In this document: in pieces, positions 1,194-42,553 of the stretch
Layout: each line of letters begins with the position of its first letter
How positions within the stretch are numbered: the stretch's first letter is position 1
Virus record (IMG/VR): IMGVR_UViG_3300027881_000029
Location: 1-42,553 of that record
Length of the DNA stretch: 42,553 nt
Source: a virus
Reading direction: 5' to 3' (one strand)
Translations under genes and position numbers: made by a program
The notes under the pieces: generated by a model
Database searches by the model: none
Seen by the model: the letters and a program-made list of their open reading frames with translations, nothing else
What the model was told of the DNA's origin: nothing

Positions 1194-1676
1194 TCAGCCC
1201 TGGTTGGCAATGAGGGATTGATAATACCACTCATGGAGGAAGCCTCGACGTAGATCGTACCCGGTCCGCACCATCTGCCATGCCCATACGGCGCGACCCG
1301 TTCGGCCATTTCCGTCCATGAACGGGTGGAGCTTCTCGAAGGCTTGGTGCACCGAGTACGCGGGGTCATGTTGGGTTGCCCGCCAGCATATGTTTTCGAG
1401 GTTGGCTTTGATAAACGGGCTGCCCAAGGGGGCGACATAACCTCCCACCCGTACGTTCTGACCAGGGTTGAGCCGGAGGGGCTTGCCTGGTTGGATGACC
1501 TTTTGGAAGTCAATGACATCTTCAATCTCCAGTTTGTGTTTGTCGAAACGCCCGGTGTTGTTCAGCAGCGTATCATATGCGTCAATCTCTACACGCAAGG
1601 CGGCATCACCGAGGTCTATGCTCTCAATTCGGTTAGACTCTTTGATAAATCCCTCCAGCATCGCCATCTTGTACAT
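1194..1676 (-). CDS. Fic/DOC-family protein
   Basis: The 160-aa product carries the Fic signature LHPFMDGNGRTGR at residues 116-128, with catalytic H117 and the anion-binding GNGR loop. Fic enzymes usually transfer AMP from ATP to a hydroxyl side chain of a target protein; some transfer other phosphate-linked groups. Near the N-terminus, SNRIES (residues 14-19) resembles the inhibitory (S/T)xxxE(G/N) helix of class II Fic proteins, with the last position degenerate. This would make the enzyme self-restrained. The ATG shares its A with the stop of the upstream gene (TAATG). An early-phage role in modifying a host protein is inference. Confidence 0.9.
   Translation of the reverse strand: MYKMAMLEGFIKESNRIESIDLGDAALRVEIDAYDTLLNNTGRFDKHKLEIEDVIDFQKVIQPGKPLRLNPGQNVRVGGYVAPLGSPFIKANLENICWRATQHDPAYSVHQAFEKLHPFMDGNGRTGRAVWAWQMVRTGYDLRRGFLHEWYYQSLIANQG
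1646..1656 (+). repeat. CAAATCCCTCC repeat, variant copy (TAAATCCCTCC)
   Basis: This copy is inside the Fic gene, differing only at the first base; it encodes part of LEGF on the minus strand. Confidence 0.85.
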
Positions 1677-2107
1677 TATAGCAGCTTCCAATCTTCGTCC
1701 GGGTCGTAGAACTTCTCCGCCGGGAACTGTTCGGCAAGGGTTCGTCGCGGCTGTTTCAGGTCAACAACCTTGCCATCGATGTCGTAGTTATCCTCGGGAT
1801 GGATACGCCTAAAGATGCGCCCCACCTTGGGGTCCCTGAAAACCGCCTCGGCATTCGCCCGCCGCTTTGCCTTAGCAGCCTGCTTCTTGGCCTGTTTGCC
1901 TGCCTCGGCGAGAATAAACTTGAAACCATCCACGTAACCACGGCTCCAAATCTCCTTGTCAGTGCCGACGAGGGCGCAACTATACCGCTTCTTCGCTGCT
2001 TGACGTTTCTCCTCGCTCACGTCGATCAGCAATTCTTGGGAATCCTCTTGCCCCGCCTCGTAACCGCCCCAATACGCGTCGTTGTTCCACATATCCATCA
2101 AAGTCAT
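1676..2107 (-). CDS. protein of unknown function, 143 aa
   Basis: No family is recognised. The N-terminus is rich in aromatic and acidic residues (MWNNDAYWGGYEAGQED). A central basic stretch (GKQAKKQAAKAKRRANAEA) may bind nucleic acid, and the C-terminus is acidic. The start overlaps the previous stop (ATGA) and its stop overlaps the Fic start, so it is a regular operon member. Coding is supported by overlap and codon pattern, not by homology. Confidence 0.75.
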   Translation of the reverse strand: MTLMDMWNNDAYWGGYEAGQEDSQELLIDVSEEKRQAAKKRYSCALVGTDKEIWSRGYVDGFKFILAEAGKQAKKQAAKAKRRANAEAVFRDPKVGRIFRRIHPEDNYDIDGKVVDLKQPRRTLAEQFPAEKFYDPDEDWKLL

Positions 2108-2502
2108 GCGCTCGCCCTCCTGTTGGCTCTGCTTTCCGCACCTCTAAGAAGTCTGCCAGTAAGGCCGCTTTCCGGGCGGTCGATTGTCGTAACTTGCGTA
2201 ATAGGAACTGATCCGGCTTTAACGCGGATACGGGGTTTGACACTATCACTGGAAGGTGCCGGGGTTCGTAGGGTTTTTCGGTCATTCGCATCTTCCCTCG
2301 GTTTAAAAGCCTTGTTCGAACGTGTGATGCATCTGATGTTCCGACACTCGACCATGTCTGCCGAGATGTCGATCGGACGTCCGCACTGGATACAATCGAA
2401 GATCGGGTCCTCCGCACCATCCGTCAGGAGATAAGTCTCCATCATAAGTTCGTGCAGGCTCTGTTCATCGTGTTTCTTGTCGCCTATCATTGTATCATCC
2501 AC
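2104..2502 (-). CDS. putative zinc-ribbon protein, 132 aa
   Basis: Residues about 37-58 contain CIQCG followed by CRNIRC, two Cys pairs spaced like a small zinc ribbon. The rest is basic and probably disordered, which would suit DNA or RNA contact. The start at 2502 lies three bases after a GGGAG; an alternative ATG at 2490 has a longer spacing from the same site. It sits immediately downstream of the nuclease gene and is probably co-transcribed with it. Confidence 0.65.
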   Translation of the reverse strand: MDDTMIGDKKHDEQSLHELMMETYLLTDGAEDPIFDCIQCGRPIDISADMVECRNIRCITRSNKAFKPREDANDRKTLRTPAPSSDSVKPRIRVKAGSVPITQVTTIDRPESGLTGRLLRGAESRANRRASA

Positions 2503-2505
2503 TCC

Positions 2506-3393
2506 CTATTTCGGAGGCTCGTACGGGACCATGTGGAATTTATCGTCCAGGTATCGATGCCGATTGTTTTCAGACGCGAGGCATATGTCGCGTAGTTCAC
2601 ATCCTCCGTACATCTGGCAGGAGCCACGGTTGCGCGGCCAGTGCTCTGTTCGATGGCATATATCAACATCGTTGACGAGTCGTACCATGTCACGTTCGAA
2701 CTCGTTGATATGATCCTCTTTGACATCAATGCGCTGCCTAGCCCAACGAGTACCGTTGACCATCGTTTGGCAAGCCTCGACCAGTACTCCTTTGACAGGT
2801 AGCCCCAAAGCCCGACACGCCCAACGGTAGGCGGTGAACTGCGTGGATGGATTCCATGAGTTCCAATATGAATAATTAAGTACTCGTCCCGTTGTCTTGA
2901 TGTCAACAATGAACAGGTCACCCTGCCATTCCGCCAGCCGATCGATCCGCCCCGACAACCGCCATGGAGTGCCCGGTATAGCCAGCTCGAACCGTAGTTC
3001 CACCGCGGGTGCATCATTGAACTTTACTGTCTTGAAAGGGTCGTCCGCACCCCATGTTTCGCCATACCACGACACAGCGCGGCAAAGCGTGTTCGGGGTC
3101 CGGCTATTGTCTGGGCTGCCGGAGAGGCTGGGAGCCAGTTCCAGTGCTTTAGACACAGCAGCGAATTGAGCCTCCACGTGGCTCTCCGTAAGTAGTTTCG
3201 TCTCATGATATGCCTCGATTCCCGAGTGAACCTGCGTTCCAAAGTGGGCGTTCCACAGCGTGCCACGCGGCCGCCAACGCTCCAAGTCTTTGATCTTGTA
3301 GTAGTACTTGCACTTATCCGCGTCGCCAAGGGAAGAGGGGTCAAATACCTCCTGCTTCCCATCGACAAACTTCTCGAACAGTATCTCACCCAT
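2506..3393 (-). CDS. PD-(D/E)XK nuclease with Cys cluster (RecB/Cas4-like)
   Basis: The 295-aa product has the RecB-type nuclease core. H56 lies in FGTQVHSGIE, D151 in GRIDRL, D164 and K166 in FIVDIKTT, and Q185 in STQFTAYRW. One Cys near the N-terminus (C28) and three near the C-terminus (C259, C265, C271, in CQMYGGCELRDIC) match the split four-Cys iron-sulfur cluster of Cas4, AddB and related phage exonucleases. Such proteins usually act as exonucleases in recombination, end processing or host-DNA degradation. Its start overlaps the end of a small membrane-protein gene by eight bases. Family assignment is firm; which DNA it attacks is unknown. Confidence 0.85.
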   Translation of the reverse strand: MGEILFEKFVDGKQEVFDPSSLGDADKCKYYYKIKDLERWRPRGTLWNAHFGTQVHSGIEAYHETKLLTESHVEAQFAAVSKALELAPSLSGSPDNSRTPNTLCRAVSWYGETWGADDPFKTVKFNDAPAVELRFELAIPGTPWRLSGRIDRLAEWQGDLFIVDIKTTGRVLNYSYWNSWNPSTQFTAYRWACRALGLPVKGVLVEACQTMVNGTRWARQRIDVKEDHINEFERDMVRLVNDVDICHRTEHWPRNRGSCQMYGGCELRDICLASENNRHRYLDDKFHMVPYEPPK

Positions 3394-3526
3394 GGACGCA
3401 TATCTGCGCTAGGGTGTAGCCCACCAGCAACGCCACCGCAGCGGCGCAGCCAATTATATAGAACCAGGGTTTGGCGAGCCACCACCAATCGTCCAAATCC
3501 CTCCAGAACGTCTTCCATTTAGTCAT
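3386..3526 (-). CDS. small single-span membrane protein, 46 aa
   Basis: The frame reads MTKWKTFWRDLDDWWWLAKP, then a hydrophobic span of about 22 residues (WFYIIGCAAAVALLVGYTLA) and a short tail. One transmembrane helix with a Trp-rich charged N-terminus is expected. The ATG overlaps the stop of the preceding small gene, and the end overlaps the nuclease start. A copy of the CAAATCCCTCC repeat lies inside it, encoding part of WRDL. Confidence 0.7.
   Translation of the reverse strand: MTKWKTFWRDLDDWWWLAKPWFYIIGCAAAVALLVGYTLAQICVHG
3494..3504 (+). repeat. CAAATCCCTCC repeat
   Basis: Exact copy inside the 46-aa membrane-protein gene. Confidence 0.9.
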
Positions 3527-3659
3527 AGCCGTGGTCCCTTAAGATATCCTCCCAGCGGGCCAGGAGGGCCTCCATCTCGTCCTCATTCTCGTGGTAGAAG
3601 TCGAAGGCACCCTTGTGAGTGGTATCGAGCAGCTCCATTAAGCATTCTTCCGAGATCAT
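3519..3659 (-). CDS. small acidic protein, 46 aa
   Basis: The frame MISEECLMELLDTTHKGAFD...ILRDHGYD is strongly acidic and predicted helical. It begins in an ATGA overlap with the previous gene and ends eight bases into the next one. Nothing in it is recognised; the gene call rests on the unbroken chain of overlapping starts and stops. It is one of three consecutive genes of exactly 46 codons plus stop. Confidence 0.65.
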   Translation of the reverse strand: MISEECLMELLDTTHKGAFDFYHENEDEMEALLARWEDILRDHGYD

Positions 3660-4062: not shown

Positions 4063-4078
4063 GCATTATTTTCATTTT

Positions 4079-4250: not shown

Positions 4251-4465
4251 TTCGAAATCCGATCGATGACCCTGCGCAAAATCATATTGGCCGTTGTCTG
4301 CCGCTTTTGGGCAGCAACCAGGTCGTGGTGGCGATCTTGCACCTTTTGATTTGCGCATATGCGGTCAGCTTTGGCCCTCTGCAACCGACCGCCCATATCA
4401 GATACTCCCAACTTGGCCATCTTCAGGTTGCTGATGGCTGCGGCCAGTTCCTTTTCATCATTCAT
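4184..4465 (-). CDS. small coiled-coil protein, 93 aa, last gene of the amidoligase operon
   Basis: The product begins MNDEKELAAAISNLKMAKLG and has a long Ala/Gln/Arg-rich heptad-like helix, likely a coiled coil. The start at 4465 overlaps the ATP-grasp stop (ATGA). The last 25 or so residues (NPGPLRSSGDILGNDSGGAA) are encoded by the right arm of the palindromic module, so this tail was probably acquired when the module inserted, or the arm serves as a terminator overlapping the gene. No function is recognised. Confidence 0.6.
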   Translation of the reverse strand: MNDEKELAAAISNLKMAKLGVSDMGGRLQRAKADRICANQKVQDRHHDLVAAQKRQTTANMILRRVIDRISNPGPLRSSGDILGNDSGGAAGC

Positions 4466-5205
4466 CGTACCATCTCCTTGAGCATTGTGACATAGTTGTC
4501 GAGAGTCGTCCCTTCGAGGCCGGGGGCGGTGTTGACTTCGATAGCATAGCACCGATCCTCTTTACCGTTCCAAATGATGTCGACCGCACCGAAGTCGAGG
4601 GAGAGAGCTGACATGGTATCAACGGCACATTGTTCCAACCCCTCCGGCGGGTCGAGGTCGTTGCGTTGGAAGATAAAGCCCGCGGCATGATTTCGTACCC
4701 TCCAGTCTTCAATTTCGGCATCTGCCCGACGTACCTTACGCTGCACATCGAAGCTCTTTCCGCCCCCCACATGGACGCGGTACTCCTCCTTCTTCTTGAT
4801 GTACAACACGTAGAGCGGAGCGTTCACCACTTGATCCGCCACCTCCGCAATCACAATTCCAGCACCGGAATGCCCAGCGAGCACTTTCCGGCACACTACA
4901 ATCTTCCCGTCGTTCGTCCACTCCTTCGCCACCTCCTTGTCCGTGGTAAACGATGGCGTCAGATCGGTGTCCACCAGCTTCTGGAAGAAGGTTCGCTTGT
5001 TGGATGCCTCGATAATGCACTCGGGGCGGTTGAACACTTGACATTTGTCGATCTCCGCGGTTGTTTCGATGGCTCCCCAGTTGATGACCTTCTTCCGGGG
5101 GCGGCCAATAAAGGTCTTGCTGTCGTGTTTGATCCGCCGAGCAGGGATGGCAAAGCGTAACGCCTTGGCACCCTTGCTTGCGAACTTATAGCTGTAGATT
5201 AGCAT
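4462..5205 (-). CDS. ATP-grasp ligase of the amidoligase cluster
   Basis: The 247-aa product shows ATP-grasp features. YVLYIKKKEEYRVHV lies in the middle and DFGAVDIIWN plus CYAIEVNTAPGLEG near the C-terminus, the last supplying the acidic and Asn metal ligands. ATP-grasp enzymes activate a carboxylate as an acyl phosphate and join it to an amine. Iyer and colleagues described phage gene neighbourhoods in which such enzymes accompany COOH-NH2 ligases and glutamine amidotransferases, and this operon fits that description. Its start shares a base with the upstream stop (TAATG). The substrate is unknown. Confidence 0.85.
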   Translation of the reverse strand: MLIYSYKFASKGAKALRFAIPARRIKHDSKTFIGRPRKKVINWGAIETTAEIDKCQVFNRPECIIEASNKRTFFQKLVDTDLTPSFTTDKEVAKEWTNDGKIVVCRKVLAGHSGAGIVIAEVADQVVNAPLYVLYIKKKEEYRVHVGGGKSFDVQRKVRRADAEIEDWRVRNHAAGFIFQRNDLDPPEGLEQCAVDTMSALSLDFGAVDIIWNGKEDRCYAIEVNTAPGLEGTTLDNYVTMLKEMVR

Positions 5206-6182
5206 TATTCCTCGCCACGTGCGAAGGGGTTAGGTTCCTGCATGCGCTGGGCACGGTGCTGTTGGCCTGCGATGACCTGTCGCAGCGCGGCCTCACGCTG
5301 TTCTCTATAACCATTACCGCGCTTGGGTGGACGCTCGCGGACACGGGGGTCGTCCAATACCTTCTCCATCTTACGCATGTAGTTATCGTGGCTGTGCTCG
5401 TCGAAGGCATACACAGCAGGCTGGATGCGACGAATACACTGTACCACCATTTGATGCATGTCCCGACACTCGACGAGTTCCTCGTATGGACCGAGGGCAT
5501 CAGTGATGAATTGGCCTGGGCCGATCGACACCGCTTCGACGATCTGCTGGGGTTTCTCGTACTGGAGGGATTTGTCCTTGAGGCGCAGCAGGATGTCCAC
5601 CCAGGTCTTGATGACGTTGAGATCCTCCGGTGTGCGCATGCCGCGGAACTCCATGCTACCATACTTCTCCAGCGCACCCAGGTTGATCGAGGCATAGCGG
5701 AACTGGTCGCCCGACATCCAGTGTACGGTATGCTCCTTGATGCACCTGGCGAAAGTAGGAATGAAGTGGGATGCGTCCCCGGTCCGCAAGCAGAACAGGT
5801 TACCCTCTCGGTCTTCACCACACCAGCGCATGAGCACGTCCTCGAACGCCAGGTAGAGCACGGCGAAGTTGAACGTCTGTCGCAGCGTGAGTTCCTGGCA
5901 GTTGACGTGGATATGGACGCCACAGCGTTCGCTCGGTTCCACCAGATACAAATCAGAAGCATGACGTCGCATAAGCAGGTCTATGACCTCCTTCACTTCG
6001 TCACGTGGCACCGGGTCTCGGAGCACGTACTCGGCACTGTTGCCGCGAAGGGAACCATCCCCCGTGACTGTCCAGTATTTGTCGTCATTCATGTCGAGAC
6101 GCGGCCCTTCAACCTCGACCTCGATGCCCACTTCGCCCGTTTGTTCCCTGACGCCGCGAAGGATTTTAAGCATCTTTATCAT
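5205..6182 (-). CDS. amidoligase (COOH-NH2 ligase, Amidoligase_2-like)
   Basis: The 325-aa product has the signature of the glutamine-synthetase-fold amidoligases. It shows VGIEVEVEGP near the N-terminus, TGDGSLRGNSAEYVL, CGVHIHVNCQ around residue 110, and YASINLGALEKYGSMEFRG. The acidic strands and the HIHVN block bind metal and ATP in this fold. The enzyme should form an amide or peptide bond between a carboxylate and an amine at the cost of ATP. The start overlaps the neighbour's stop (ATGA). A repeat copy lies at 5564, encoding KSLQ. Family is confident; substrate is unknown. Confidence 0.85.
   Translation of the reverse strand: MIKMLKILRGVREQTGEVGIEVEVEGPRLDMNDDKYWTVTGDGSLRGNSAEYVLRDPVPRDEVKEVIDLLMRRHASDLYLVEPSERCGVHIHVNCQELTLRQTFNFAVLYLAFEDVLMRWCGEDREGNLFCLRTGDASHFIPTFARCIKEHTVHWMSGDQFRYASINLGALEKYGSMEFRGMRTPEDLNVIKTWVDILLRLKDKSLQYEKPQQIVEAVSIGPGQFITDALGPYEELVECRDMHQMVVQCIRRIQPAVYAFDEHSHDNYMRKMEKVLDDPRVRERPPKRGNGYREQREAALRQVIAGQQHRAQRMQEPNPFARGEE
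5564..5574 (-). repeat. CAAATCCCTCC repeat
   Basis: Exact copy on the minus strand inside the Amidoligase_2-like gene (KSLQ codons). Confidence 0.9.
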
Positions 6183-11718: not shown

Positions 11719-11895
11719 TTAATCTTCCCTTCGTGAGGTGCGGAGACAGGTGTGGTCCATGACCGAGCCGGGCGAGCCATCATTGAGGCCCTTCCAGATG
11801 ATTCCGCCACACCGACAGGTAGCTCTTGCGCGACTCGGGTAGCGGTGCGGCTTCTTCTTTAACCGAGCATAGGGTGATTTGCTCTTCTTGTGCAA
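11719..11895 (-). CDS. possible small Cys-containing ORF overlapping the HNH gene, TTG start
   Basis: A second minus-strand frame, shifted from the HNH gene, stays open for 58 codons. It contains ATCRCGGIIWKGLNDG and a later HTC, a possible small zinc site. A TTG at 11895 is preceded by AAGGGA at suitable distance. Its TAA lies three bases before the next gene, filling what would otherwise be a 64-base gap in a tightly packed operon. No homology is known, and the overlap with the HNH C-terminus makes it uncertain. Confidence 0.3.
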   Translation of the reverse strand: MHKKSKSPYARLKKKPHRYPSRARATCRCGGIIWKGLNDGSPGSVMDHTCLRTSRRED

Positions 11896-12154
11896 GTTTA
11901 TGTCCCTTCAGTTGGTTGCAGCGGAGGTGAGTTACCTGTAAGTTGCGCTTAGCAGATGACCCACCATGTTTACGTGGTAGTATGTGGTCTAGGCTGTTAG
12001 ACCATGCTTGGAGGGATTTGGGCATCACATCAGTGAGTGTTGGGAGCGGTGTCCCACACAAGGCGCACAGGCCATGCTGCTGATGCCACAAATCTCTCTT
12101 CCACAGGGGGAGCATCCTCCGGCGTTTCTTGTTGAGTGAAGAGAATGCTCCCAT
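11780..12154 (-). CDS. HNH endonuclease
   Basis: The 124-aa product shows the HNH fold. CALCG at about residue 30, LDHILPRKHGG, NLQVTHLRCNQLKG supply the His-Asn-His residues and a structural CxxC...C zinc site. Phage HNH enzymes act as homing nucleases, or nick DNA for packaging or replication. It is a free-standing early gene at the head of the leftward operon, not next to the terminase. The ATG lies four bases after the stop of the upstream frame (12159-12422), suggesting coupled translation. A repeat copy at 12010 encodes KSLQ. Confidence 0.85.
   Translation of the reverse strand: MGAFSSLNKKRRRMLPLWKRDLWHQQHGLCALCGTPLPTLTDVMPKSLQAWSNSLDHILPRKHGGSSAKRNLQVTHLRCNQLKGHKLAQEEQITLCSVKEEAAPLPESRKSYLSVWRNHLEGPQ
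12010..12020 (-). repeat. CAAATCCCTCC repeat
   Basis: Exact minus-strand copy inside the HNH gene (KSLQ codons). Confidence 0.9.
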
Positions 12155-12158: not shown

Positions 12159-12422
12159 TCAGTCTTTGGCGAGGCGTTTTAGCATGTATCGTGTCTCCTG
12201 GTGGTGAGAGGGAGGACAGGATTGCCCTCCCCCTAGTCTATCCGGTACTTCTACAACCCCGGCACGGTTGCGGCTGGACCTTTTGAGATACCCTCTCCCC
12301 TTGCACGGCTTGAGGTCACTCTCACGAATCACTTCCCGGCACCCAGCGGTGCGCTCCCAAATCCCTCCGAATGAGGAGGAACCTACCAGCCTTGCGATCT
12401 CTTTGGTCGTGGTGTCTAGCAG
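12159..12422 (-). CDS. probable first leftward early gene with non-standard CTG start, 87 aa
   Basis: The minus strand has a 105-codon stretch without stop ending at 12159. No in-frame ATG, GTG or TTG lies near its beginning. A CTG at 12422 follows GGGAG by seven bases, and a promoter (-10 at 12464-12459) predicts a transcript starting near 12452, just upstream. The frame reads LLDTTTKEIARLVGSSSFGG, resembling a helix-turn-helix. The last eight codons (MLKRLAKD) also have their own AGGAG-preceded ATG at 12185, so an 8-residue leader peptide is the alternative. The product is not recognised. Confidence 0.4.
   Translation of the reverse strand: MLDTTTKEIARLVGSSSFGGIWERTAGCREVIRESDLKPCKGRGYLKRSSRNRAGVVEVPDRLGGGQSCPPSHHQETRYMLKRLAKD
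12358..12368 (+). repeat. CAAATCCCTCC repeat
   Basis: Exact copy in the leader/CTG-start ORF region upstream of the HNH gene, 348 bases from the previous copy. Confidence 0.9.
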
Positions 12423-13685: not shown

Positions 13686-14105
13686 ATGGCGAGGAAGGAC
13701 AAGCGTTACAAGCGCAAGTTAACCGATGAACAGCGGACTGAGCTGTTGAGGTTGTATGGTGGCACGGGCATGTCGGCAAGAGAGATTGGGTACATGTTCC
13801 ACATCACCAAGTCCGCGGTCAACGCCATTGCTTATCGGGAGGGCGTGGTCAAGTGGGACCCAAGCAGTCCTCCGGGTGTGGTCGTACGCAAGTTCCTTCC
13901 TTACCGCCATGTGCCGGAGGTTAACCTGGATACTGTTGCACGTGACAAGGATGTGCGGCCGACTGACTTCTGTCGTTGTGCTGTGATCTGCGACTGGTGC
14001 TGCGGTATCGACGCTGCGGAGCCGACTGATTGGCGCATCGCGTCGCTGAAAGGACGAACCTTGAAGGATCTAGTTTTAAGTAATCACACCATGAGGATCA
14101 AGTAA
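13686..14105 (+). CDS. putative helix-turn-helix regulator with Cys cluster, 139 aa
   Basis: Residues about 15-50 (LTDEQRTELLRLYGGTGMSA, REIGYMFHITKSAVNAIAYR) form a helix-turn-helix like that of resolvase or sigma-type regulators. A C-terminal cluster CRCAVICDWCC probably binds zinc. The N-terminus is strongly basic. GAGGG stands just upstream of the ATG at 13686. It is a good candidate for a protein that reads one of the repeated DNA motifs in this window, though no evidence links it to a particular one. Confidence 0.75.
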   Translation: MARKDKRYKRKLTDEQRTELLRLYGGTGMSAREIGYMFHITKSAVNAIAYREGVVKWDPSSPPGVVVRKFLPYRHVPEVNLDTVARDKDVRPTDFCRCAVICDWCCGIDAAEPTDWRIASLKGRTLKDLVLSNHTMRIK

Positions 14106-14431
14106 TGCACAAGATACTGCAAGTAATCATACTGCTGCACTTAGTATTCGCCATCGGTGCTGCGCCAGCCCGTGCGGTCGAGGCCGCGGACTATGCGGAA
14201 GGGTTCGACGCCTGCATGAGCAAGGTGGGCAAGCTGCGGAGGGATTTGGCACAAGAATACTGTGCGTGCGCCATCAACCGCATCGGCGTAATGATCGACG
14301 AGGGTCACGAGGGCTTGCGGTGGTCCTACGACAACCGTGACACCCGCGAGGGGGCGGCAGTGGGCAAGCGCATCATCACGGATGTGTCCCGAGCTTGCAT
14401 CAAAGAGATGCTGGGGAAGCCGCGAACATGA
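14105..14431 (+). CDS. putative secreted/periplasmic small protein, 108 aa
   Basis: A signal peptide is clear: MHKILQVIILLHLVFAIGAA followed by PARA, with likely cleavage after ARA. The mature part has four Cys residues (C37, C53, C55 and one late), suggesting disulfides in the periplasm. Mature helices are charged. No lipobox is present. Function unknown; envelope or superinfection roles are possible. Confidence 0.75.
   Translation: MHKILQVIILLHLVFAIGAAPARAVEAADYAEGFDACMSKVGKLRRDLAQEYCACAINRIGVMIDEGHEGLRWSYDNRDTREGAAVGKRIITDVSRACIKEMLGKPRT
14238..14248 (-). repeat. CAAATCCCTCC repeat
   Basis: Exact minus-strand copy inside the exported-protein gene (RRDL codons on the plus strand). Confidence 0.9.
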
Positions 14432-14634
14432 TGTTTCGTGCCGTTGACTGCTCGGCCATCTTACCCAGGAAGGATGGCTACATCACCGCCACTATTTGTG
14501 GCATCAACTACAAGTTCCAGTACGACAACGATGCGTCGCGAGATGCCGCGCTCCTGGCGGCTTACGAGTCGTGGAACCAAGCGGAGATGGCGGAGGGATT
14601 TGAGTGGGTCACCGTCCAGGGGTACAACACATGA
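14428..14634 (+). CDS. small protein of unknown function, 68 aa
   Basis: The product MMFRAVDCSAILPRKDGYIT has beta strands followed by a helix containing AALLAAYESWNQAEMAEGF. ATGA overlaps on both sides. A repeat copy at 14592 encodes AEGF. Confidence 0.65.
   Translation: MMFRAVDCSAILPRKDGYITATICGINYKFQYDNDASRDAALLAAYESWNQAEMAEGFEWVTVQGYNT
14592..14602 (-). repeat. CAAATCCCTCC repeat
   Basis: Exact minus-strand copy inside the 68-aa gene (AEGF codons), 354 bases from the previous copy. Confidence 0.9.
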
Positions 14635-18390: not shown

Positions 18391-18440
18391 GGTGTCGTCG
18401 AAGGCCAAATCCCTCCAAGAACGAGCCTAACGACGACACC
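18391..18440. ncRNA. inverted repeat that may fold a small RNA
   Basis: GGTGTCGTCG (18391-18400) and CGACGACACC (18431-18440) are perfect 10-bp inverted arms around a 30-base loop. The loop contains a copy of CAAATCCCTCC. A leftward promoter at 18462-18491 would transcribe it from about 18455, giving a short structured RNA. No terminator T-run follows on that strand, so the RNA's extent is unknown. It may instead be a DNA signal near the terminase genes. Confidence 0.4.
18406..18416 (+). repeat. CAAATCCCTCC repeat
   Basis: Exact copy in the loop of the non-coding inverted repeat upstream of the terminase. Confidence 0.9.
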
Positions 18441-18461
18441 TAAGTCTGGAGACCATGCTCT

Positions 18462-20694: not shown

Positions 20695-21399
20695 ATGGCG
20701 GGACTTTCAGATTACGTATCGGAACACGGCGAGTTCATGGTGGACCTCGTGCCCGAACATGTACCTGCCACCAAGAATGCGAAGAAGCCCGTAGCTCACG
20801 ACGAACCCACATACAAGCGACCGGAGGCCGAGTCCGTAAGGGCCACACCTTCGCCAGCTACGGTGGAGGAGGACGTGAACTACGACTTCGTTCGCCAGGC
20901 CGAGAACAGCATCAAGAAGGGCTACGTCTCTGCCAGCGGCAAGTGGTATCCCTACGAAGGGGGCCTCGGTTATGGCGAATACGACATAGGCTATAGCCAC
21001 AAAATAGTAGATGGCAAGGTAAAGATCGGCGGGAAGCAGTATGACGCGGCACAAGGATTCACCCAGTCCCAGATCAACCAACTCTTCCGAGAAGACATGG
21101 CTGGGGCGGACCGCGAAGCTCGCAAGTATAAGCGCCTCAATCGAAACCAACAGCAGGCGCTCGCTTCCATCTTTTACCAGTCCGGCACAAACATGGCATC
21201 CTATGGACCAAAAGCCCTCGCGGCCCTCAAAGCGTATGAGAAAAAGGGCATGCAGGACGACCTCGACACGTTTATCTACGAAGCCTTCGACCCCAACCAA
21301 GGAATCGCGGTTAAGGTTAAGAAGGGCGACAAACCCCTCAAATCCCTCCAGAAGCGGGTAGCCAAGCGCCGCGCACGTTTTATGGGACTGCCCAAATGA
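20695..21399 (+). CDS. phage lysozyme (GH24-like muramidase), probably virion-associated
   Basis: The 234-aa product has an N-terminal disordered stretch of about 60 residues, then a lysozyme domain. E70 in VRQAENSIKKG is the candidate catalytic acid. YDIGYSHKI replaces the usual TIGYGH, and FREDMAGADREARKY and NQQQALASIFYQSG match the rest of the GH24 family. It should cleave peptidoglycan glycan strands. Its place between terminase and portal, and the long N-terminal extension with PTYKRP also present in the next protein, suggest it is carried in the particle for DNA entry and not only used for lysis. A repeat copy at 21339 encodes KSLQ. Confidence 0.8.
   Translation: MAGLSDYVSEHGEFMVDLVPEHVPATKNAKKPVAHDEPTYKRPEAESVRATPSPATVEEDVNYDFVRQAENSIKKGYVSASGKWYPYEGGLGYGEYDIGYSHKIVDGKVKIGGKQYDAAQGFTQSQINQLFREDMAGADREARKYKRLNRNQQQALASIFYQSGTNMASYGPKALAALKAYEKKGMQDDLDTFIYEAFDPNQGIAVKVKKGDKPLKSLQKRVAKRRARFMGLPK
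21339..21349 (+). repeat. CAAATCCCTCC repeat
   Basis: Exact copy near the 3' end of the lysozyme gene (KSLQ codons). Confidence 0.9.
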
Positions 21400-22280: not shown

Positions 22281-24649
22281 TGGCTATTGAGAAATCATAC
22301 CCCGGTGAACTGCCTGTCAGTGGGCTTGAGCCTTCTGCAGAAGACGCTGAGATGGAGGCTATGCTTGACATCCAGTTGCCCGACGAAGAGGGCGACATGG
22401 GAGAGGACATGCCCAACCAAGAGGCCCCTCCCGTTGATCACTATGAGAACCTGGCTGAGCGTATGGACACAAGAGAGCTGCGCATGATTGGCAAGGACCT
22501 CGTTGCTGACGTCGAGGCTGACTTTGAAAGCATGAGTGAGTGGGAGCAGATCCTTACGGACGGCCTGAAACTACTAGGATTCAAGTTAGATGACCGAGAA
22601 GCCGAAGTGTTCCCAGACAGTTGCACAGTTGCGCATCCGCTTCTGGCGGAGTCTATCGTCAAGTACCAGGCAAAAGCTCGTTCGCAAATTCTTCGGCCCG
22701 AAGGCACTGCCCGCACGAAGATCCTTGGGCGAGCTGATCCTGTTCGAAAAGCACAAGCCGAACGAATAAAGGAGTTTACGAACTACCAAATTCAGGAACT
22801 TATGCCAGAGTATGGACCCGAACATGACCGCATGCTTTTTCATCAGGCCTTCGCCGGATCGGCGTACACCAAACTCTTTTATGACACCGCGCTGGGAAGA
22901 CCTGTTTCTCGTTTCGTTGCCCCGCTTAAATTCATTATCGACTACAATGCTACAAATTTGGAGTCAGCCTACCGATACGCCGAAGTCCTCGACCTCCATG
23001 CAAACGACCTTCGACGCTATCAACTCGATGGATTTTACACCCGAGTAGCGCTCACCGAGCAGGGCGATGAGTCCGACGGTGCGCTCGCAGAAGAGATCGA
23101 CAGCATAGCAGGGAGGGTTGCGTCCGATGCCGACGACACCACGTACCAGCTCTACGAAGTCCACACCTACCTCGCGCTCGAGGGAGAGGTCGATGATCGA
23201 ACACAGGAAGAGGCCGAAATCGGACTTGAACTTCCGTATATCATCACGGTTGACTCCAACAGCGGCAACATTCTCGCGATCCGTCGGAACTGGAAAGAAG
23301 GAGATCAGCGCTATGCCAAGCGGCTCTGGTACACGCATTGGCCGTTTATACCAGGTTTGGGCTTTCAGGGCTATGGCTATGTACATCTTATTGGTGGGCT
23401 ATCTCGCACTGCTTCTTCATCGTTGCGGCAGCTTATTGATGCAGGCAGCTTTGCTACTCTGCAAGGAGGCTTTAAGGCGCATGGAATGCGAGTCATCGGT
23501 AACAATGAACCGATCCAACCGGGTGAATGGCGTGATGTTCAGGCTCCTGGAATGGATCTTTCAAAGGCTCTCCAGCCGCTCCCGTATAAGGAGCCGTCGC
23601 CGACCCTAATGAATTTGCTGGTCTTCATCACGGAGGCAGCCCAGAAGTTCGCGGATAGCACCGAGCAGGTTGTATCTGAGTCCACCAACTACGGACCCGT
23701 AGGGACTACTATGGCGCTGCTGGAAGCCAGTGGCCGACTTTTCTCGGGCATCCACGAACGTCTATTCGAGTCGCAGAAGCGCGAACTCATGATTCTCATG
23801 GAGATAAACAGTGAAACCCTCCCGGACAAATACCCCTTCCCCATGGCAGGGGGCGAGCAAGTCATCGCCTCAGCCGACTTTGACGCGCGGCTGGACGTCA
23901 TTCCCGTTACTGACCCCCGTGAACCCACCGCGGCCCACAGGGTTGCGCGTGCGAACGCGACGCTCTCGGTTGCTGGGCAGTTCCCAAAGGAACACAATCT
24001 GCCAGCGGTCCTCGAGGATCTTCACTCGGCCCTGGGTTCGGAAGACCCCGCGCGGTACCTGACGTCTGTCAAGCCACCGCCCCCAATGGACCCGGTGACA
24101 GAGAACGCGAACCTGATCAAGGGTACCCCGGCCAAAGCCTATCTCGAAGAGAACCACATGGCGCACATCAAGGTGCACATGATGATCATCGACAACCCGA
24201 TGTACAGCCAGAACCCGCAGTCGATCCAGGCGGTGATGGCGCACGTCCAGGATCATCTAGCCATGCAGTACACGGTCGAGATGATGCAGCAAGGAGTGGA
24301 ACTGCCTAAGCCGCAGAACGACCAAATCCCTCCAGAACAAGCTGAGCAGATGAAGCAAAAGCACGACGCCAATAACGCTATTGCGGTGCAGGCGGCTGAG
24401 GCGGCTGACAAGATTGTGCCACAACCAGCCGAGGAAGACCTGGAACTCCAGGTTAAACTGGGTGAGTTGGAAGTCAAGAACCGGGCGCAGGATCTCAAGG
24501 AAGCCGAGGCCATGGCCAAGGAAGAGCTTGAGAAGAAGACGCTGGCTCAGGAAGACAGCCACCATAAGGACGATATCCGGGTCGATCTCCTAGAGATGGA
24601 CAAGGACCGTGACATTGCGAAATTGACCAAGAACAGGAAGGAGACTTAA
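22280..24649 (+). CDS. portal protein
   Basis: The 789-aa product is of the long portal type found in short-tailed phages. Recognisable stretches include VEADFESMSEWEQILTDGLK, a core region with FQGYGYVHLIGGLSRTASS, LRQLIDAGSFATLQGGF, and a long C-terminal coiled coil (about 680-789) rich in Glu, Lys and Gln that would form the barrel inside the head. Twelve copies form the ring at one capsid vertex through which DNA passes. It follows TerL at the expected distance and precedes scaffold and capsid. A repeat copy at 24323 encodes QIPPE. Confidence 0.92.
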   Translation: MAIEKSYPGELPVSGLEPSAEDAEMEAMLDIQLPDEEGDMGEDMPNQEAPPVDHYENLAERMDTRELRMIGKDLVADVEADFESMSEWEQILTDGLKLLGFKLDDREAEVFPDSCTVAHPLLAESIVKYQAKARSQILRPEGTARTKILGRADPVRKAQAERIKEFTNYQIQELMPEYGPEHDRMLFHQAFAGSAYTKLFYDTALGRPVSRFVAPLKFIIDYNATNLESAYRYAEVLDLHANDLRRYQLDGFYTRVALTEQGDESDGALAEEIDSIAGRVASDADDTTYQLYEVHTYLALEGEVDDRTQEEAEIGLELPYIITVDSNSGNILAIRRNWKEGDQRYAKRLWYTHWPFIPGLGFQGYGYVHLIGGLSRTASSSLRQLIDAGSFATLQGGFKAHGMRVIGNNEPIQPGEWRDVQAPGMDLSKALQPLPYKEPSPTLMNLLVFITEAAQKFADSTEQVVSESTNYGPVGTTMALLEASGRLFSGIHERLFESQKRELMILMEINSETLPDKYPFPMAGGEQVIASADFDARLDVIPVTDPREPTAAHRVARANATLSVAGQFPKEHNLPAVLEDLHSALGSEDPARYLTSVKPPPPMDPVTENANLIKGTPAKAYLEENHMAHIKVHMMIIDNPMYSQNPQSIQAVMAHVQDHLAMQYTVEMMQQGVELPKPQNDQIPPEQAEQMKQKHDANNAIAVQAAEAADKIVPQPAEEDLELQVKLGELEVKNRAQDLKEAEAMAKEELEKKTLAQEDSHHKDDIRVDLLEMDKDRDIAKLTKNRKET
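24323..24333 (+). repeat. CAAATCCCTCC repeat
   Basis: Exact copy inside the portal gene (QIPPE codons). Confidence 0.9.
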
Positions 24650-28316: not shown

Positions 28317-28339
28317 TGTACACATCCTGATCTGAGATA

Positions 28340-28376: not shown

Positions 28377-28387
28377 CAAATCCCTCC
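28377..28387 (+). repeat. CAAATCCCTCC repeat
   Basis: Exact copy in the intergenic space between the capsid terminator and the promoter at 28403. Confidence 0.9.
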
Positions 28388-31844: not shown

Positions 31845-32427
31845 AATGACAAATCCCTCCACGCCAGAGGAGACAGGTGGTCAACCGCGCATCATTGCAC
31901 ACGCGGACAAGGTTACTGTAGGTGCTACCACGCTCGACCAGCTCACTGCAGAGCAGGGGGCGGCGGCTGGATGGTTCACATTTACGCAGGTTGTGCCCAA
32001 CGAGAATTTCTACGAGCTTGGTGACGCAACATACATCACCGCAGGCACTGGCGTGCACCGCGTATACAACACCCCGGTATTCAAGAACATTGAGCAGATT
32101 CGTAGGTGGAAGCTGGGCAAGTTGCGCGGGCAGATGAAGTTTCGTCGGCGCTGGATGACGCACGGGGCGAAGCAATATGATGCTGCCCCTGAGCGCGCTG
32201 GATACATTGCCCTCCTGTTGCAGGTTCCGCGGAAGACGGGCTACCGCGTTGAGGCGCGCGATGGCACCTTCGTGACCATGAATACCACCGAATTCCAGAA
32301 CTACGCGCGGCGTATGGCCACGCACATCGAGGCGATCGATACGCGGAACCTGGCCTTGCGCGACCTAATCGACACTGAAGTGGATGAAGCTACACTCATC
32401 AACGTGGATGAAACGAGTGGTTGGTAA
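31834..32427 (+). CDS. tail-associated protein, DUF4376-like C-terminus, 197 aa
   Basis: The N-terminal half is varied; the C-terminal FQNYARRMATHIEAIDTRNL ending in ALRDLIDT resembles the DUF4376 helix pair of phage tail proteins. GGGAGG lies six bases before the ATG, which overlaps the glycosyltransferase end. A repeat copy at 31850 encodes TNPS. Probably a fibre-assembly or baseplate-associated protein. Confidence 0.6.
   Translation: MWIKMTNPSTPEETGGQPRIIAHADKVTVGATTLDQLTAEQGAAAGWFTFTQVVPNENFYELGDATYITAGTGVHRVYNTPVFKNIEQIRRWKLGKLRGQMKFRRRWMTHGAKQYDAAPERAGYIALLLQVPRKTGYRVEARDGTFVTMNTTEFQNYARRMATHIEAIDTRNLALRDLIDTEVDEATLINVDETSGW
31850..31860 (+). repeat. CAAATCCCTCC repeat
   Basis: Exact copy at the 5' end of the DUF4376-like gene (TNPS codons). 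Confidence 0.9.
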
Positions 32428-36600: not shown

Positions 36601-38996
36601 CAGATATTGCTGACGCTGTTTGGAATGAGACTGCTACAGGACATGTGGGGGCGGGTGCTGCAGGATCACAATTGTGGACTGATATAGATGCTATTTTAAC
36701 AGACACAGGAACTACTCTTTCAGCTCAGGTAACTACGATTGCTTCCGATCTTGTATTAGCTCAAGCAGATCTTGATACTATCTACTCGGATACCACCAAG
36801 ATCCATTCGGATACTACGGTTCTCGAAGCTGCCACCGCCCCCACAGCAGCCGCCATTGCAGACGCGGTATGGGATGAGGTGGTCACCGGGCACAACACGG
36901 CAGGCAAGGCAGGCAGTCAGCTCTGGACTAATATCGATTCGATCCACAGCGACACCACCAAGATCCACTCGGACACCACAGTCATTGAGTCTCAGACTAC
37001 AGTCATTGAGTCCAAGGCTATCGAGATTGAGTCTGACACGACTTCAATCCATAGCCAAACCACGGTCATCGAGAGCGACAGCATCAAGGTGGAGTCCAGT
37101 GTGGACGTCATTGAGTCGCAGGTTAGCAAGATTTACAGCGATACTACGGCGATCAACGCCGCGGTAGGCACGCTCTTCGACGGTACGGCCGACAGCGGAT
37201 CGACCACAACCCTGGTTGACACGGAGCTGACGCAGGCTACCGACGATCACTGGGTGGGTAATTTGATCAAGTTCACCAGCACCACGCTGGATGGACAGAC
37301 GGCGCGCATCACGGGTTTCGTGGCTGCCACCGACACGCTCACCTTTGAGCCTGCCCTCACAGTGTCAGTGGCCACGCACACATACTCGATCATCCCCTGG
37401 CAGGACGGTCTGCTGGTTGCTGAGAAGTCGGCTCTGACCAAGATCCTCTCAGAAGTGGACGTCATCCAGTCCGACATCGCCCTTGTCGACAGTCAGGTCA
37501 CAGCCACAGACGCTGTGGTGGACACGATCTACTCTGACACAACCCATATCCACAGCGATACCACCATTGCAACCTCGGCACTCAGCGACATCGAGTCCTT
37601 CCTGTTGCTCATCGACAGTGCCGTCACGGTCATCGACGATCTGCTCGACACCGAAATCCCGGCGCTCACGTCCAATATGGTACATGTTAAGAGCGACACG
37701 GCAGCTATCGAGGCTGATACCAACCAGATCATCAGTGATACCTCGCTCATCAAGAGCGACCTCGTGGTGCTCACAACCAACGTGGCTGCGGTAGACTCAC
37801 AAGTTACGGCTACCGACAGTCAGCTCACAGTCACTGACGCTGTTGTAGATACTATCTACAGCGACACCACCATCGTGGTGCAGGTCACCAGCGACATCGA
37901 GTCCAACCTCGTCACGGTCAAGAGCGATGTTCTCACGGTGGATAGCCAGCTTACAGTCACCGATACCGCGGTGGACGCCATCCAAACAGCGGTGGACAGC
38001 CAGTCCACGAAGATCTACTCCGATACCACGGTCATTGAGGCTACGGGTGCATCGCTCACGGTGGCTCAGGACAGCAAGCTGACCGAGGTGCACGGCGACG
38101 TCAACACCATCGACGCGGCTACAACCCCCGGCATCAGCGATATCAAGTCGGCCCTGGTGGTCACGGATGCGGTTGTCGATACCATCTACAGCGACACGAC
38201 GATCATCGCCTCTGACCTCAAGCTGGTCGAATCCAGCGTCAGCAAGATCCTGTCTGACACCACGGCCATCGAGTCCGACCTCGAGATTGCTAACTCGGAG
38301 CAGAGCCAGATCCTCAGCGACACCGCGGCGATCCACTCGCAGACTACGGTCATCGAGTCTAAGGTCGTCGAGATCGAGTCTGACACCACAGCCATACACA
38401 GCAAGGTGGTCGAAATTGAAAGCGACACTACAGCGATCCACACGCAAACCACCACCATTGCCTCTGACCTGGTGCTGGCGCAGGCGGATCTGGACACGGT
38501 CACCAGTGATCTCGTGGTCATCGACGCCCTCCTGTCACCGGAAATCAGCGACATCCTCTCGAAGGTCCTGATCATCCAGAGCGACACGAGCGACATCAAG
38601 TCCAAGCTGGTGGTCATCGACTCCGATCTGAGCAAGCTGGCCAGCGACTTGGTCATCGTGGACAGCGGCGTCAACGTCATCCAGAGCGATGTGGTCAAGA
38701 TCTCCAGCGATATCAGTGCGGTGCCGTTCCAGAAGAACGCGGCCCTGCTCAACTTCCAGTTCGAGATGGTGGACGCCACGGACTTCCAGACCCCGGAAAC
38801 GGGCATCAGCGTTACGGCCACCCGCAGCATCGATAACGCAGCCTTCGCAGCGTGTGCTAACAGCGCCGCCGAGTTGAGCAATGGCATCTACGCCATCAAC
38901 TTGGACGCCACGGACATGAATGGTGACGTCATCACCTTCCGGTTCACGGGCACGGGTTGCGCCGACCGCTTCATCACGATCCATACGAGCGCGTAA
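33669..38996 (+). CDS. giant repetitive tail fibre protein, 1,775 aa
   Basis: A beta-sandwich-like N-terminal domain (about 1-118) is followed by long helical repeats of the type DTVVDTIYSDTTHIHSD, interrupted six times by ADAVWDELITGHNSAGKAGS-type units ending SQLW. Three small beta domains are inserted at about 227-293, 599-665 and 1177-1247; the last two share QATDDHW/EATDDHY openings. The C-terminal domain (about 1692-1775) resembles the N-terminal one. The heptad-like pattern of hydrophobic residues predicts a very long trimeric coiled fibre. Virion attachment and receptor binding are likely. It is the largest gene here. Confidence 0.85.
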   Translation: MIPYLGDFLEDDTVYIGFNTFSSDDPSASVTITNLADADLKVHKDGAIAQLVTDGATIAIDYDGITGNHLATIDTSAHADYAVGSDYHVRMEGTTVDGATINAWIGCFSIENRSVTRAAVSDIKSALVVTDAVVDTIYSDTTHLHSDSIKVESSIDVVESRASQIISDTTHIHSDTIVIEAFGTPPTVAAIADGVWDELTTDHIAVNTFGQRLSVSETGTAAAATSTTLTLDAGSSELADFYNGCILVITAGTGAGQSRIIEDYAVTTNVATVATWVTTPSTDSVYYIVPFGTIPGTSAPTAAQVADAVWNELITGHDSAGMAGSQLWTNINAIASDSIKVESSIDVIESRASQIISDTTEIFSDTTAIEAFGTPPTVAAIADGVWDELITGHNSAGKAGSQLWTNIDAILTDTANIDANVTISQSEISQILSDTTVIEAFGAPPTAAVNADAVWNEAMADHVALGSFGEGISDIESNLVIIDTVVDAILVDTGTTLDNAISDVKSALVVVDTVVDTIASDLILAQTDLDTLTSDIVLIDQDTSDIKATLVTVASDAAAIEVDTGTTLSAQITTIASDIVLLDTAVVVARGAAEGVPTSTVIQTDLPEATDDHYNNMVFAMTSGNEAGEVRRISDYTGVTGTITLATALSGAPTATETFVIMGTAVAAAAGSLTAEAVADAVWDELITGHNSAGKAGSQLWTNINSIASDSIKVESSIDVIESKVSQIYSDTTHIHSDTIVIEGATAPTAAAIADAVWDELITGHNTAGKAGSQLWTNINSIASDSIKVESSIDVIESKVSAIYSDTTHIHSDTTAIEAFGTPPTVAAIADGVWDEAMAGHVALGSFGEGISDIESNLVIIDTVVDTILVDTGTTLDNAVSDVKSALVVVDGIVDAILVDTGTTLSAQVTTIASDLVLAQTDLDTLTSDTAAIEVDTGTTLSAQITTIASDIKLVESSVSQILSDTTVIEAAGGASAADIADAVWNETATGHVGAGAAGSQLWTDIDAILTDTGTTLSAQVTTIASDLVLAQADLDTIYSDTTKIHSDTTVLEAATAPTAAAIADAVWDEVVTGHNTAGKAGSQLWTNIDSIHSDTTKIHSDTTVIESQTTVIESKAIEIESDTTSIHSQTTVIESDSIKVESSVDVIESQVSKIYSDTTAINAAVGTLFDGTADSGSTTTLVDTELTQATDDHWVGNLIKFTSTTLDGQTARITGFVAATDTLTFEPALTVSVATHTYSIIPWQDGLLVAEKSALTKILSEVDVIQSDIALVDSQVTATDAVVDTIYSDTTHIHSDTTIATSALSDIESFLLLIDSAVTVIDDLLDTEIPALTSNMVHVKSDTAAIEADTNQIISDTSLIKSDLVVLTTNVAAVDSQVTATDSQLTVTDAVVDTIYSDTTIVVQVTSDIESNLVTVKSDVLTVDSQLTVTDTAVDAIQTAVDSQSTKIYSDTTVIEATGASLTVAQDSKLTEVHGDVNTIDAATTPGISDIKSALVVTDAVVDTIYSDTTIIASDLKLVESSVSKILSDTTAIESDLEIANSEQSQILSDTAAIHSQTTVIESKVVEIESDTTAIHSKVVEIESDTTAIHTQTTTIASDLVLAQADLDTVTSDLVVIDALLSPEISDILSKVLIIQSDTSDIKSKLVVIDSDLSKLASDLVIVDSGVNVIQSDVVKISSDISAVPFQKNAALLNFQFEMVDATDFQTPETGISVTATRSIDNAAFAACANSAAELSNGIYAINLDATDMNGDVITFRFTGTGCADRFITIHTSA

Positions 38997-39191: not shown

Positions 39192-39220
39192 TTGACAAAT
39201 CCCTCCAAGCATGGTATAAT
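39192..39220 (+). promoter_or_regulatory. consensus sigma70 promoter (TTGACA-17-TGG-TATAAT)
   Basis: Perfect TTGACA at 39192-39197 and TATAAT at 39215-39220, 17 bases apart with extended -10 TGG. A CAAATCCCTCC copy overlaps the -35 box and spacer. The ATG at 39227 falls on the expected start of transcription. Confidence 0.9.
39196..39206 (+). repeat. CAAATCCCTCC repeat
   Basis: Exact copy overlapping the -35 box and spacer of the promoter at 39192. Confidence 0.9.
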
Positions 39221-40736: not shown

Positions 40737-41452
40737 TGGCTACTTCCGGTACATTTACCTACGCGGCGTCAAACGTCGACATTATCGAGGAAGCCTATGA
40801 GCTTGCGGGCTACGAGGGGCGGTCTTCCTACGACAGTGAAACTGCGCGCCGCAGCATGAACCTGATCTTCTCGGACTGGGCCAACTACGGTGTCAATCTC
40901 TGGACCCTCGGGATGGTGACCACCGACATGGTGGCATCAACTGCCAGCTATACCCTGAGCGCCCAGTACTTCGACATCATCGAGGCGGTGATGGAGGACA
41001 ACACTACGGCCGTCCCACTCGACATCCCAATGGAGCGAATCAGTTATGAAGAGTACCTCAACCTCCCCGACAAGACCACCACAGGTCGACCAAACCTGTA
41101 TGCCGTGCAGCGCGGCCGGACACAGCTTACCGTGTACATGTACCCTACCCCAGACGTCAGTACTCTGGATTTCCGTGCCTGGACTGTCAGGTACATGGAA
41201 GACGTGGGAACCATGTCCCAGAACCCCGACATCCCTCGTCGATTTGAAGCAGCCCTCGTATACCGACTGGCCTACGAGCTAGCACTAAAGAAGAAGTACA
41301 ACCAAGTGAGTCCCGAGCATGCCATGGCTGACGCGCAGAACAGTCGCGCGAGGCGGCAGGAGCTGGGACAGAGGGCAGGTGCTCTGTTTGATAGAGCGCG
41401 CGAAGAGGACAGCGATGCAGCTTCTCTCTTCATCCGCCCCAAGGTGCGATAA
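40736..41452 (+). CDS. head-tail adaptor (tail-tubular/neck-like) protein 1
   Basis: The 238-aa product contains GTFTYAASNVDIIEEAYELA, then DWANYGVNLWTLG, PNLYAVQRGRTQLTVYMYPT and PRRFEAALVYRLAYELALK. This is the pattern of phage adaptor proteins that bind under the portal ring (P22 gp4 or tail-tube A functional class). The ATG at 40736 shares a base with the previous stop. Assignment is by pattern and position. Confidence 0.7.
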   Translation: MATSGTFTYAASNVDIIEEAYELAGYEGRSSYDSETARRSMNLIFSDWANYGVNLWTLGMVTTDMVASTASYTLSAQYFDIIEAVMEDNTTAVPLDIPMERISYEEYLNLPDKTTTGRPNLYAVQRGRTQLTVYMYPTPDVSTLDFRAWTVRYMEDVGTMSQNPDIPRRFEAALVYRLAYELALKKKYNQVSPEHAMADAQNSRARRQELGQRAGALFDRAREEDSDAASLFIRPKVR

Positions 41453-41739
41453 TGGTATTTGCAGTAGGAGCCAAGGCGTGGGGGCATTGCGACCGTTGCG
41501 GGTTCCGCTATCTACTCAAGAGGCTACGACGTGAGCAACATACCAAGGTCAAGGTCTGTCCCACCTGCTATGACCCGGTGCCAGATCAAAGTTGGCCACC
41601 CCATCCATCTCCTCGGGATGCAGTGGCTCTGCAAGATCCTCGGCCGGATCGTGATGCTGCGACTACTCTTTACGATGATGATGGGGATGGTAACACGCTC
41701 TTGAAGGACGTCATTGATATGACGCACGGTGACACCTAA
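41452..41739 (+). CDS. zinc-ribbon virion-cluster protein, 95 aa
   Basis: CDRCGFRY and CPTCYDPV supply a four-Cys zinc ribbon within the first 45 residues; the rest is acidic and Pro-rich. It overlaps the adaptor stop. Small zinc-ribbon proteins of this type commonly lie next to adaptor genes in environmental podoviruses. Function unknown. Confidence 0.75.
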   Translation: MVFAVGAKAWGHCDRCGFRYLLKRLRREQHTKVKVCPTCYDPVPDQSWPPHPSPRDAVALQDPRPDRDAATTLYDDDGDGNTLLKDVIDMTHGDT

Positions 41740-42401
41740 TGGCTATTTTCTCATACACCTACGCCACTCTTGAGACGGCTGTCAAGAACTGGACGGAGGA
41801 TGACTCAACCGAATTCGATGCGGTCCTTGATGATATCATGGGTCTCGCCGAACTCATGATCTACAGGGATGTGGACCTTGATTACACAAAGAAACATGCA
41901 ACTGTTACAGGATCAGCAAGCGATCAGTACCTTGCCAAGCCGACAGATTTTGTCGCAGACCGCAGCATGTACCTCACCAGCAGCGGAGTCATATATCCAC
42001 TCACAGCAAAGTCTGCAAACTGGATACGTGACTACTGGGAAACTCCCGCATCTGAGGAGCGGCCGAAGTACTACGCAGACTGGGACGACGACACATTCCT
42101 CATCGCCCCCACTCCAGACGCCTCCTACGTCTATACCTTGGAATATACCCATCGCCCTGCGCGGCTTGCGAGTGATAACACAACGACCTGGCTGTCAACC
42201 AACGCGCCTGATGTACTGCTATTCGCTTGTCTTGTACAGTCTGCAGCGTTTCTTCAAGAACTTAACCGCGGCGAAGAGCCGGGCATGCTGCCAGTGTGGG
42301 AGAAGGCATACTTAGAAGGTATTAAGAGATTGAGAGACGAAGAGATGCGCAAACAGCGTCGGACCGAGGCGCGCTTTGGTGAGAGTCATGGCGAAATCTA
42401 A
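41739..42401 (+). CDS. head-tail adaptor protein 2, 220 aa
   Basis: The product MAIFSYTYATLETAVKNWTE continues with ELMIYRDVDLDY, YLAKPTDFVADRSMYLTSSG and LYTLEYTHRPARLASDNTTT-like sequence, typical of phage adaptor proteins that connect portal and tail. It shares a base with the previous stop (TAATG) and overlaps the next gene. By pattern related to, but distinct from, the adaptor at 40736. Confidence 0.72.
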   Translation: MAIFSYTYATLETAVKNWTEDDSTEFDAVLDDIMGLAELMIYRDVDLDYTKKHATVTGSASDQYLAKPTDFVADRSMYLTSSGVIYPLTAKSANWIRDYWETPASEERPKYYADWDDDTFLIAPTPDASYVYTLEYTHRPARLASDNTTTWLSTNAPDVLLFACLVQSAAFLQELNRGEEPGMLPVWEKAYLEGIKRLRDEEMRKQRRTEARFGESHGEI

Positions 42402-42553
42402 GTACTGGATCAGCGACATAGACGACGAAGGCTACATCTGGATTGAGTTCGACGGCGAGGGTGGCACGCGTTACCAGGTGCCGCTCAACGAAGACGGCTC
42501 CATCCTCTCCAACGCCGACTTCAAGCAGTGGATTAAGAACACGGCGGAGGGAT
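42388..42553 (+). CDS. protein of unknown function, 5' part only
   Basis: The frame MAKSKYWISDIDDEGYIWIE runs through the right window edge (55 codons seen). It is acidic and beta-rich. It overlaps the previous gene by 14 bases. The last eight bases, GGAGGGAT, may begin another copy of the genome-wide repeat. Confidence 0.65.
   Translation, partial: MAKSKYWISDIDDEGYIWIEFDGEGGTRYQVPLNEDGSILSNADFKQWIKNTAEG

Follow-up and report, generated by a model that had tools for sequence, protein, structure and literature searches.

A strictly conserved, asymmetric 11-base word dispersed through a tailed phage genome, possibly the recognition site of a phage-made DNA-binding factor

The stretch of DNA analysed here, called the window throughout, is the 42,553-base virus record IMGVR_UViG_3300027881_000029 (positions 1-42,553), and the element of interest is an 11-mer, CAAATCCCTCC, that recurs along it in both orientations. 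The predicted proteins of the window are those of a tailed phage and include a large terminase, a portal protein, a capsid protein, a GroES-like protein, and an adaptor of the SU10 type; a cassette of amidoligase, ATP-grasp/COOH.NH2 ligase, and glutamine amidotransferase genes (4462-9661) is also present. Genes were called with our own simple codon-model caller, and single boundaries may be off. The nearest named relatives, all of them distant, are phage DSL-LC04, Pelagibacter phages HTVC023P and HTVC027P, Roseobacter phage CRP-901, and Caulobacter phages, with approximately 30-38% identity in terminase and portal and 55-58% in the capsid protein of DSL-LC04, HTVC023P, HTVC027P, and CRP-901. 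No relative of the right half of the window was found at the DNA level in the phage collection, and a search with the DNA polymerase returned only a contig that overlaps the window.

This second contig, IMGVR_UViG_3300027881_000043 (L383, L384; 36,274 bases), came to light in a scan of viral contigs with CAAATCCCTCC extended to 14 bases. It begins with 467 bases that match window positions 42087-42553 at 98.5% and ends with 275 bases that match positions 1-275 at 97.8%, so that the joined contigs form a circle of 78,085 bases, of which the window is slightly over half. All 13 differences in the overlaps are C/T or A/G exchanges (transitions), and at about 2% divergence the two contigs appear to represent two strains of one phage species, whose conservation can be compared site by site only in the overlaps. 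The second contig encodes a DNA polymerase, a primase/helicase, ribonucleotide reductase, an RNA ligase, a polynucleotide kinase, and a Sak4-like annealing protein.

The 12 exact copies of CAAATCCCTCC that a first-pass annotation had reported in the window were all confirmed, eight on the plus strand and four on the minus strand, where dinucleotide shuffles predict 0.01 and a Markov-2 model 0.015. Seven of them are coding copies, compared with 0.09 on average and at most 2 in any of 2000 codon-preserving shuffles (0/2000 reach seven), and such shuffles fall far short of the count in the second contig too. Chance and codon use are ruled out as the cause by these dinucleotide, Markov, and codon-preserving controls; protein or codon constraint is insufficient, as had been argued, and a signal at the DNA level is the natural reading. 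Tandem or mobile repeats are likewise ruled out, the flanks being unrelated and Tandem Repeats Finder (TRF) returning nothing relevant. With the 14 further copies of the second contig, the circle holds 26 exact copies against 0.026 expected, a density of 333 per Mb. No known RNA family matched the window, and a literature search on the word itself found nothing relevant.

That all 11 positions are invariant follows from the definition of the search; what shows that no looser motif lies behind the 11-mer is the near-absence of one-mismatch variants, of which the circle contains three against 0.98 expected. One of these, TAAATCCCTCC, had been noted in the window, and a second, CAAATACCTCC, had been missed. 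A match cut short by the end of the window, GGAGGGAT, is complete in the overlapping contig, where it reads GGAGGGATTTG and counts among the 14 copies. Outside the core, a C precedes the word in 18 of the 26 copies and an A follows it in 21, and nothing else stands out; the claim that the next base is always a purine holds within the window (9 A, 3 G) and fails among the 14 copies of the second contig (12 A, 1 G, 1 T). The copies in the window and the features discussed with them are listed in Table 1.

Table 1. Positions and contexts of the 11-mer CAAATCCCTCC, its variants, and associated features in the window
Feature	Position	Strand	Context
One-mismatch variant TAAATCCCTCC	1646..1656	+	about 20 bases from start of gene 1194-1676
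One-mismatch variant CAAATACCTCC	3342..3352	+	may be chance
11-mer	3494..3504	+	noncoding, between genes 2506-3393 and 3519-3659
11-mer	5564..5574	-	in amidoligase-like gene 5205-6182; reads KSLQ
11-mer	12010..12020	-	in HNH endonuclease gene 11780-12154; reads KSLQ
11-mer	12358..12368	+	noncoding region separating divergent arms
11-mer	14238..14248	-	in gene 14105-14431, opposite to coding strand; gene reads RRDL
11-mer	14592..14602	-	in gene 14428-14634, opposite to coding strand; gene reads AEGF
11-mer	18406..18416	+	noncoding, in predicted hairpin adjoining back-to-back promoters
11-mer	21339..21349	+	close to 3' end of lysozyme-like gene 20695-21399; reads KSLQ
11-mer	24323..24333	+	in portal gene 22280-24649; reads QIPPE
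11-mer	28377..28387	+	noncoding, between terminator-like hairpin (28339-28367) and sigma70-like promoter (28403)
11-mer	31850..31860	+	16 bases into gene 31834-32427; reads TNPS
11-mer	39196..39206	+	in sigma70-like promoter; first CA ends TTGACA box, remainder in spacer
Cut 11-mer GGAGGGAT	42546..42553	-	window end; complete as GGAGGGATTTG in overlapping contig (G751:460-470)
Promoter TTGACA-17-TATAAT	39192..39220	+	contains 39196 copy of 11-mer
Small helix-turn-helix protein	13686..14105	+	weak match to D5-like regulators (phrog_323, E 5e-4) and Sigma70_r4
8-mer CCGCCCCC	4522, 4760, 5097, 6945, 9125, 9965, 12637, 13446, 14350, 15491, 17162, 17202, 17723, 24077, 28409, 30711, 31142, 31956, 34427, 34561, 36647, 36835, 40297

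Across the circle, 19 of the 26 copies lie in predicted genes, in five of the six reading frames and in both orientations, with eight reading KSLQ. The other seven are noncoding, compared with 1.8 expected from the 6.9% of positions that are noncoding (P 0.0015). The copies occur about once per 3 kb, and their intervals are distributed more evenly than at random (coefficient of variation 0.58, P 0.002; Kolmogorov-Smirnov test against an exponential distribution, P 0.0005). When copies less than 500 bases apart are merged, 22 clusters remain that are at least 1,853 bases apart (coefficient of variation 0.40, P 0.00015), a probability to be read with care because the threshold was picked after seeing the data. 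The copy-free stretches of 5.6-12.0 and 31.9-39.2 kb pointed out in the first-pass annotation are real; they are merely the two longest intervals of a spacing that is evener than chance overall, not patchier. Since the word is unchanged at 26 evenly spread places, most of them in genes, where the encoded amino acids differ, something very specific must read it. Two giant genes may be mentioned here: one of 2,855 codons in the second contig (L383, 10238-18805) with four copies of the 11-mer, and one of 1,775 codons in the window (33669-38996) with none.

The first-pass annotation had also placed one copy over a promoter and another in a hairpin, and both placements stand, the hairpin at 18406 being a predicted one. 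Two copies (39196 in the window and 20044 in the second contig) lie 8 and 9 bases upstream of a perfect TATAAT, for which the random rate is 0.0016 per site. A promoter element of the MotA-box type was considered and rejected, as only 2 of the 26 copies have a good -10 box at a distance of 6-11 bases.

Apart from the 11-mer, promoter-like sequences of the window fall into a class with TTGCAT (17486, 18516, 18462 and 4034, the last two on the minus strand) and a class with TTGACA or TTGACT (20659, 25255, 28403, 39192), all with TATAAT and often with TATAATAG. The sequence AATAATSC occurs just upstream of three of the four TTGCAT promoters, and terminator-like hairpins directly precede the promoters at 25255 and 28403. 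Between 18340 and 18553, two promoters stand back to back with a hairpin-forming repeat between them, and RNA from the leftward one would show GGAGGGAUUUG in a stable hairpin. Other repeats include CACCTGTGCTCC, with three copies in noncoding parts of the early region (12581, 14830, 16441), and an AT-rich block around AGTAATTATATAATATGAGTTTTACTTCTTACGTATA that is near-identical at two places (near 4150 and 17385).

A search for relatives through the capsid, terminase, and portal-region proteins gave 305 loci (3.31 Mb) of phages and phage-like contigs, in which CAAATCCCTCC has two hits, approximately the chance level; the search for close relatives gave a best capsid match of 65% identity and none that has the word. 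Nor is it enriched in approximately 1,020 bacterial genomes, nearly all of Acidobacteriota, Verrucomicrobiota, Actinomycetota, Alphaproteobacteria, and Gammaproteobacteria plus single others, where its density stays at or below about 5 copies per Mb, compared with 333 in the phage; no host was identified. Among the matches listed in the viral-contig scan with the 14-base extension, only this phage has three or more copies. An unrelated contig (L385) has two copies that read GGTTCAAATCCCTCC, as tRNA T-arms do, and a T-arm match may explain the low-level bacterial hits. Mimicry of T-arms by the phage was rejected, the phage copies having no GTT before the word, so that the match is coincidental; the window has no tRNA gene.

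Contigs with a related terminase or portal have strict dispersed words of their own, all palindromes: CTGACATTGTCAG in L168, TACTAGTCTGACTAGTA in L017, and GTACGKNCGTAC in L126. Several of the carriers were found through the terminase and one, a phage record, through the portal. These palindromes are probably operator sites, and sets of sites that span the genome and are specific to one phage seem to be a recurrent feature around this phage group. The words of L168, L017, and L126 are palindromic, as expected for dimeric regulators, whereas the 11-mer is not. Dispersed palindromes were also seen in L121, L106, and L104 together with these three, for example TCTGACATTGTCAGA, with 8 copies in 15.7 kb. 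In Caulobacter phage GB2A, a repeated word was rejected as a parallel, being a tandem repeat within one gene and not a dispersed site.

The phage contains a second strict word, the 8-mer CCGCCCCC, with 39 copies in the 78-kb circle against 1.96 expected, 23 of them in the window; the reversed word, used as a control, occurs three times (two in the window and one in the second contig). Its coding copies in the window number 18, compared with 1.66 in codon-preserving shuffles. It is found in coding and noncoding DNA and in both orientations, its intervals are indistinguishable from exponential by the Kolmogorov-Smirnov test, and it is not markedly enriched in the relatives. One copy lies between the -35 and -10 boxes of the promoter at 28403, as the 11-mer does at 39192.

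We favour, with moderate confidence, the view that this phage or its close lineage makes a sequence-specific DNA-binding factor whose recognition word is CAAATCCCTCC. A phage-specific factor is favoured because the word is absent from relatives and unenriched in the sampled bacteria, because it is used at promoters, and because neighbouring phage contigs have other dispersed words. The preference for C before and A after the core extends it in the manner of a footprint, and protein footprints often extend beyond the core. From these patterns we infer that a protein reads the word, that the phage encodes this protein, and that its binding has effects of the following kind. Sites would be kept genome-wide, about one per 3 kb and in either orientation; at a few promoters, protein bound between the -35 and -10 boxes would block RNA polymerase, and at the remaining sites its role would be to coat or organise the phage DNA or to hinder polymerases moving past.

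A speculative candidate for the reader is the small helix-turn-helix protein of Table 1, suggested by its weak resemblance to D5-like regulators; D5 of phage T5 is a helix-turn-helix protein (PMC13405049). The predicted structure of the candidate was unusable (pLDDT 34). Several points weigh against a factor of this kind. No cognate protein was identified, and the sole helix-turn-helix candidate is a weak match. The word has 11 invariant positions with almost no near-matches, and transcription-factor sites usually vary; most copies lie within genes, and a repressor does not need even spacing. Among the proteins scanned, which left out some small ones, there is no integrase, known repressor, or ParB/parABS system, and the lack of an integrase or known repressor means that a lysogeny repressor is not indicated.

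The likeliest of the other explanations, although an improbable one, is a signal of the Chi or translocase-read type, in which a moving enzyme (a recombination nuclease, DNA translocase, or packaging motor) would read the word and change its activity, the even spacing spreading the effect over the genome. In favour of such a role, the word is strict, tolerated within genes, and evenly spaced, as words that moving enzymes read tend to be. Chi, KOPS, and DNA uptake sequences are strict, asymmetric, frequent words of bacterial genomes, which are tolerated in coding DNA and may be evenly distributed; the 11-mer is like them in its strictness (26 exact copies, three one-mismatch variants), its asymmetry, and its tolerance of genes (19 copies), and differs in having been found only in the phage so far. 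The phage also encodes a RecB-like PD-(D/E)XK nuclease (2506-3393) besides the Sak4-like annealing protein, and CCGCCCCC has the length of Chi. Against this, the strong polarity of KOPS is lacking, with 16 copies on the plus and 10 on the minus strand and 18 of 26 with transcription and 8 against (two-sided binomial approximately 0.08), and the two placements at perfect promoters would be unexpected; to our knowledge, 11 bases also exceeds the length of Chi and KOPS words.

That the phage copies a signal of its host, such as an uptake, segregation, or repair word, is less probable still. Two unrelated strict words in one phage, neither enriched in relatives, could be two words of one unusual host, but the ceiling of about 5 copies per Mb in the approximately 1,020 bacterial genomes and the confinement of three or more copies to this phage among the matches listed in the viral-contig scan speak against it. 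The first-pass annotation had left the choice between phage factor and host signal open; the tests that it proposed (14 further copies in the rest of the phage, a chance-level count in the related phages, and no enrichment in the sampled bacteria) favour the former and only weaken the latter.

Immunity sites of a temperate phage, at which a repressor bound to asymmetric stoperators stops prophage transcription, appear very unlikely here. In cluster A mycobacteriophages such as L5, 20-30 short asymmetric sites of 13-14 bp are spread over the genome, some of them in promoters; they are described by a weight-matrix motif, oriented with transcription, and located in short intergenic spaces (PMC6550527; PMC9283540). 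The 26 asymmetric sites in 78,085 bases, one in a strong promoter and one after a terminator-like hairpin, are similar in number and asymmetry, whereas they are 11 bp long, invariant, inconsistently oriented, and mostly inside genes, and the proteins scanned include no repressor. As number and asymmetry agree while orientation with transcription and intergenic placement do not, we do not class the 11-mer system as stoperators, though by analogy it may act similarly at promoters. The C1 operators of phage P1, a prophage plasmid, are asymmetric sites dispersed in both orientations and read by one phage protein, the C1 repressor. The 11-mer shares this scatter and asymmetry; the P1 sites differ in being about 17 bp long, variable, and mostly at promoters, with their repressor known.

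Least probable is a signal at the RNA level, in which the leftward promoter near 18460 would give rise to a small phage RNA that shows GGAGGGAUUUG in a hairpin and pairs with CAAAUCCCUCC in mRNAs: the promoter is strong, the hairpin around the 18406 copy is stable (z -2.6), and the purines after most copies would pair with U there, but eight copies face against transcription, variants tolerable by G-U pairing are nearly absent, and the 39196 copy overlaps a promoter.

Returning to the favoured phage factor, we suggest, tentatively and as a doubtful extension of it, that the whole genome of this phage, in which no lysogeny module was recognised, is marked about every 3 kb with an invariant asymmetric word, which a phage protein reads to organise, protect, or orient the DNA during infection. 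If true, this would be a viral counterpart of chromosome-organising words, made of sites that work inside genes. The identity of the reader would reveal either a phage regulator of a new type or a means by which phage DNA is marked or protected by the phage itself. To judge from our survey, dispersed words of their own are common in phages around this group, so that the same question may be asked of many genomes.

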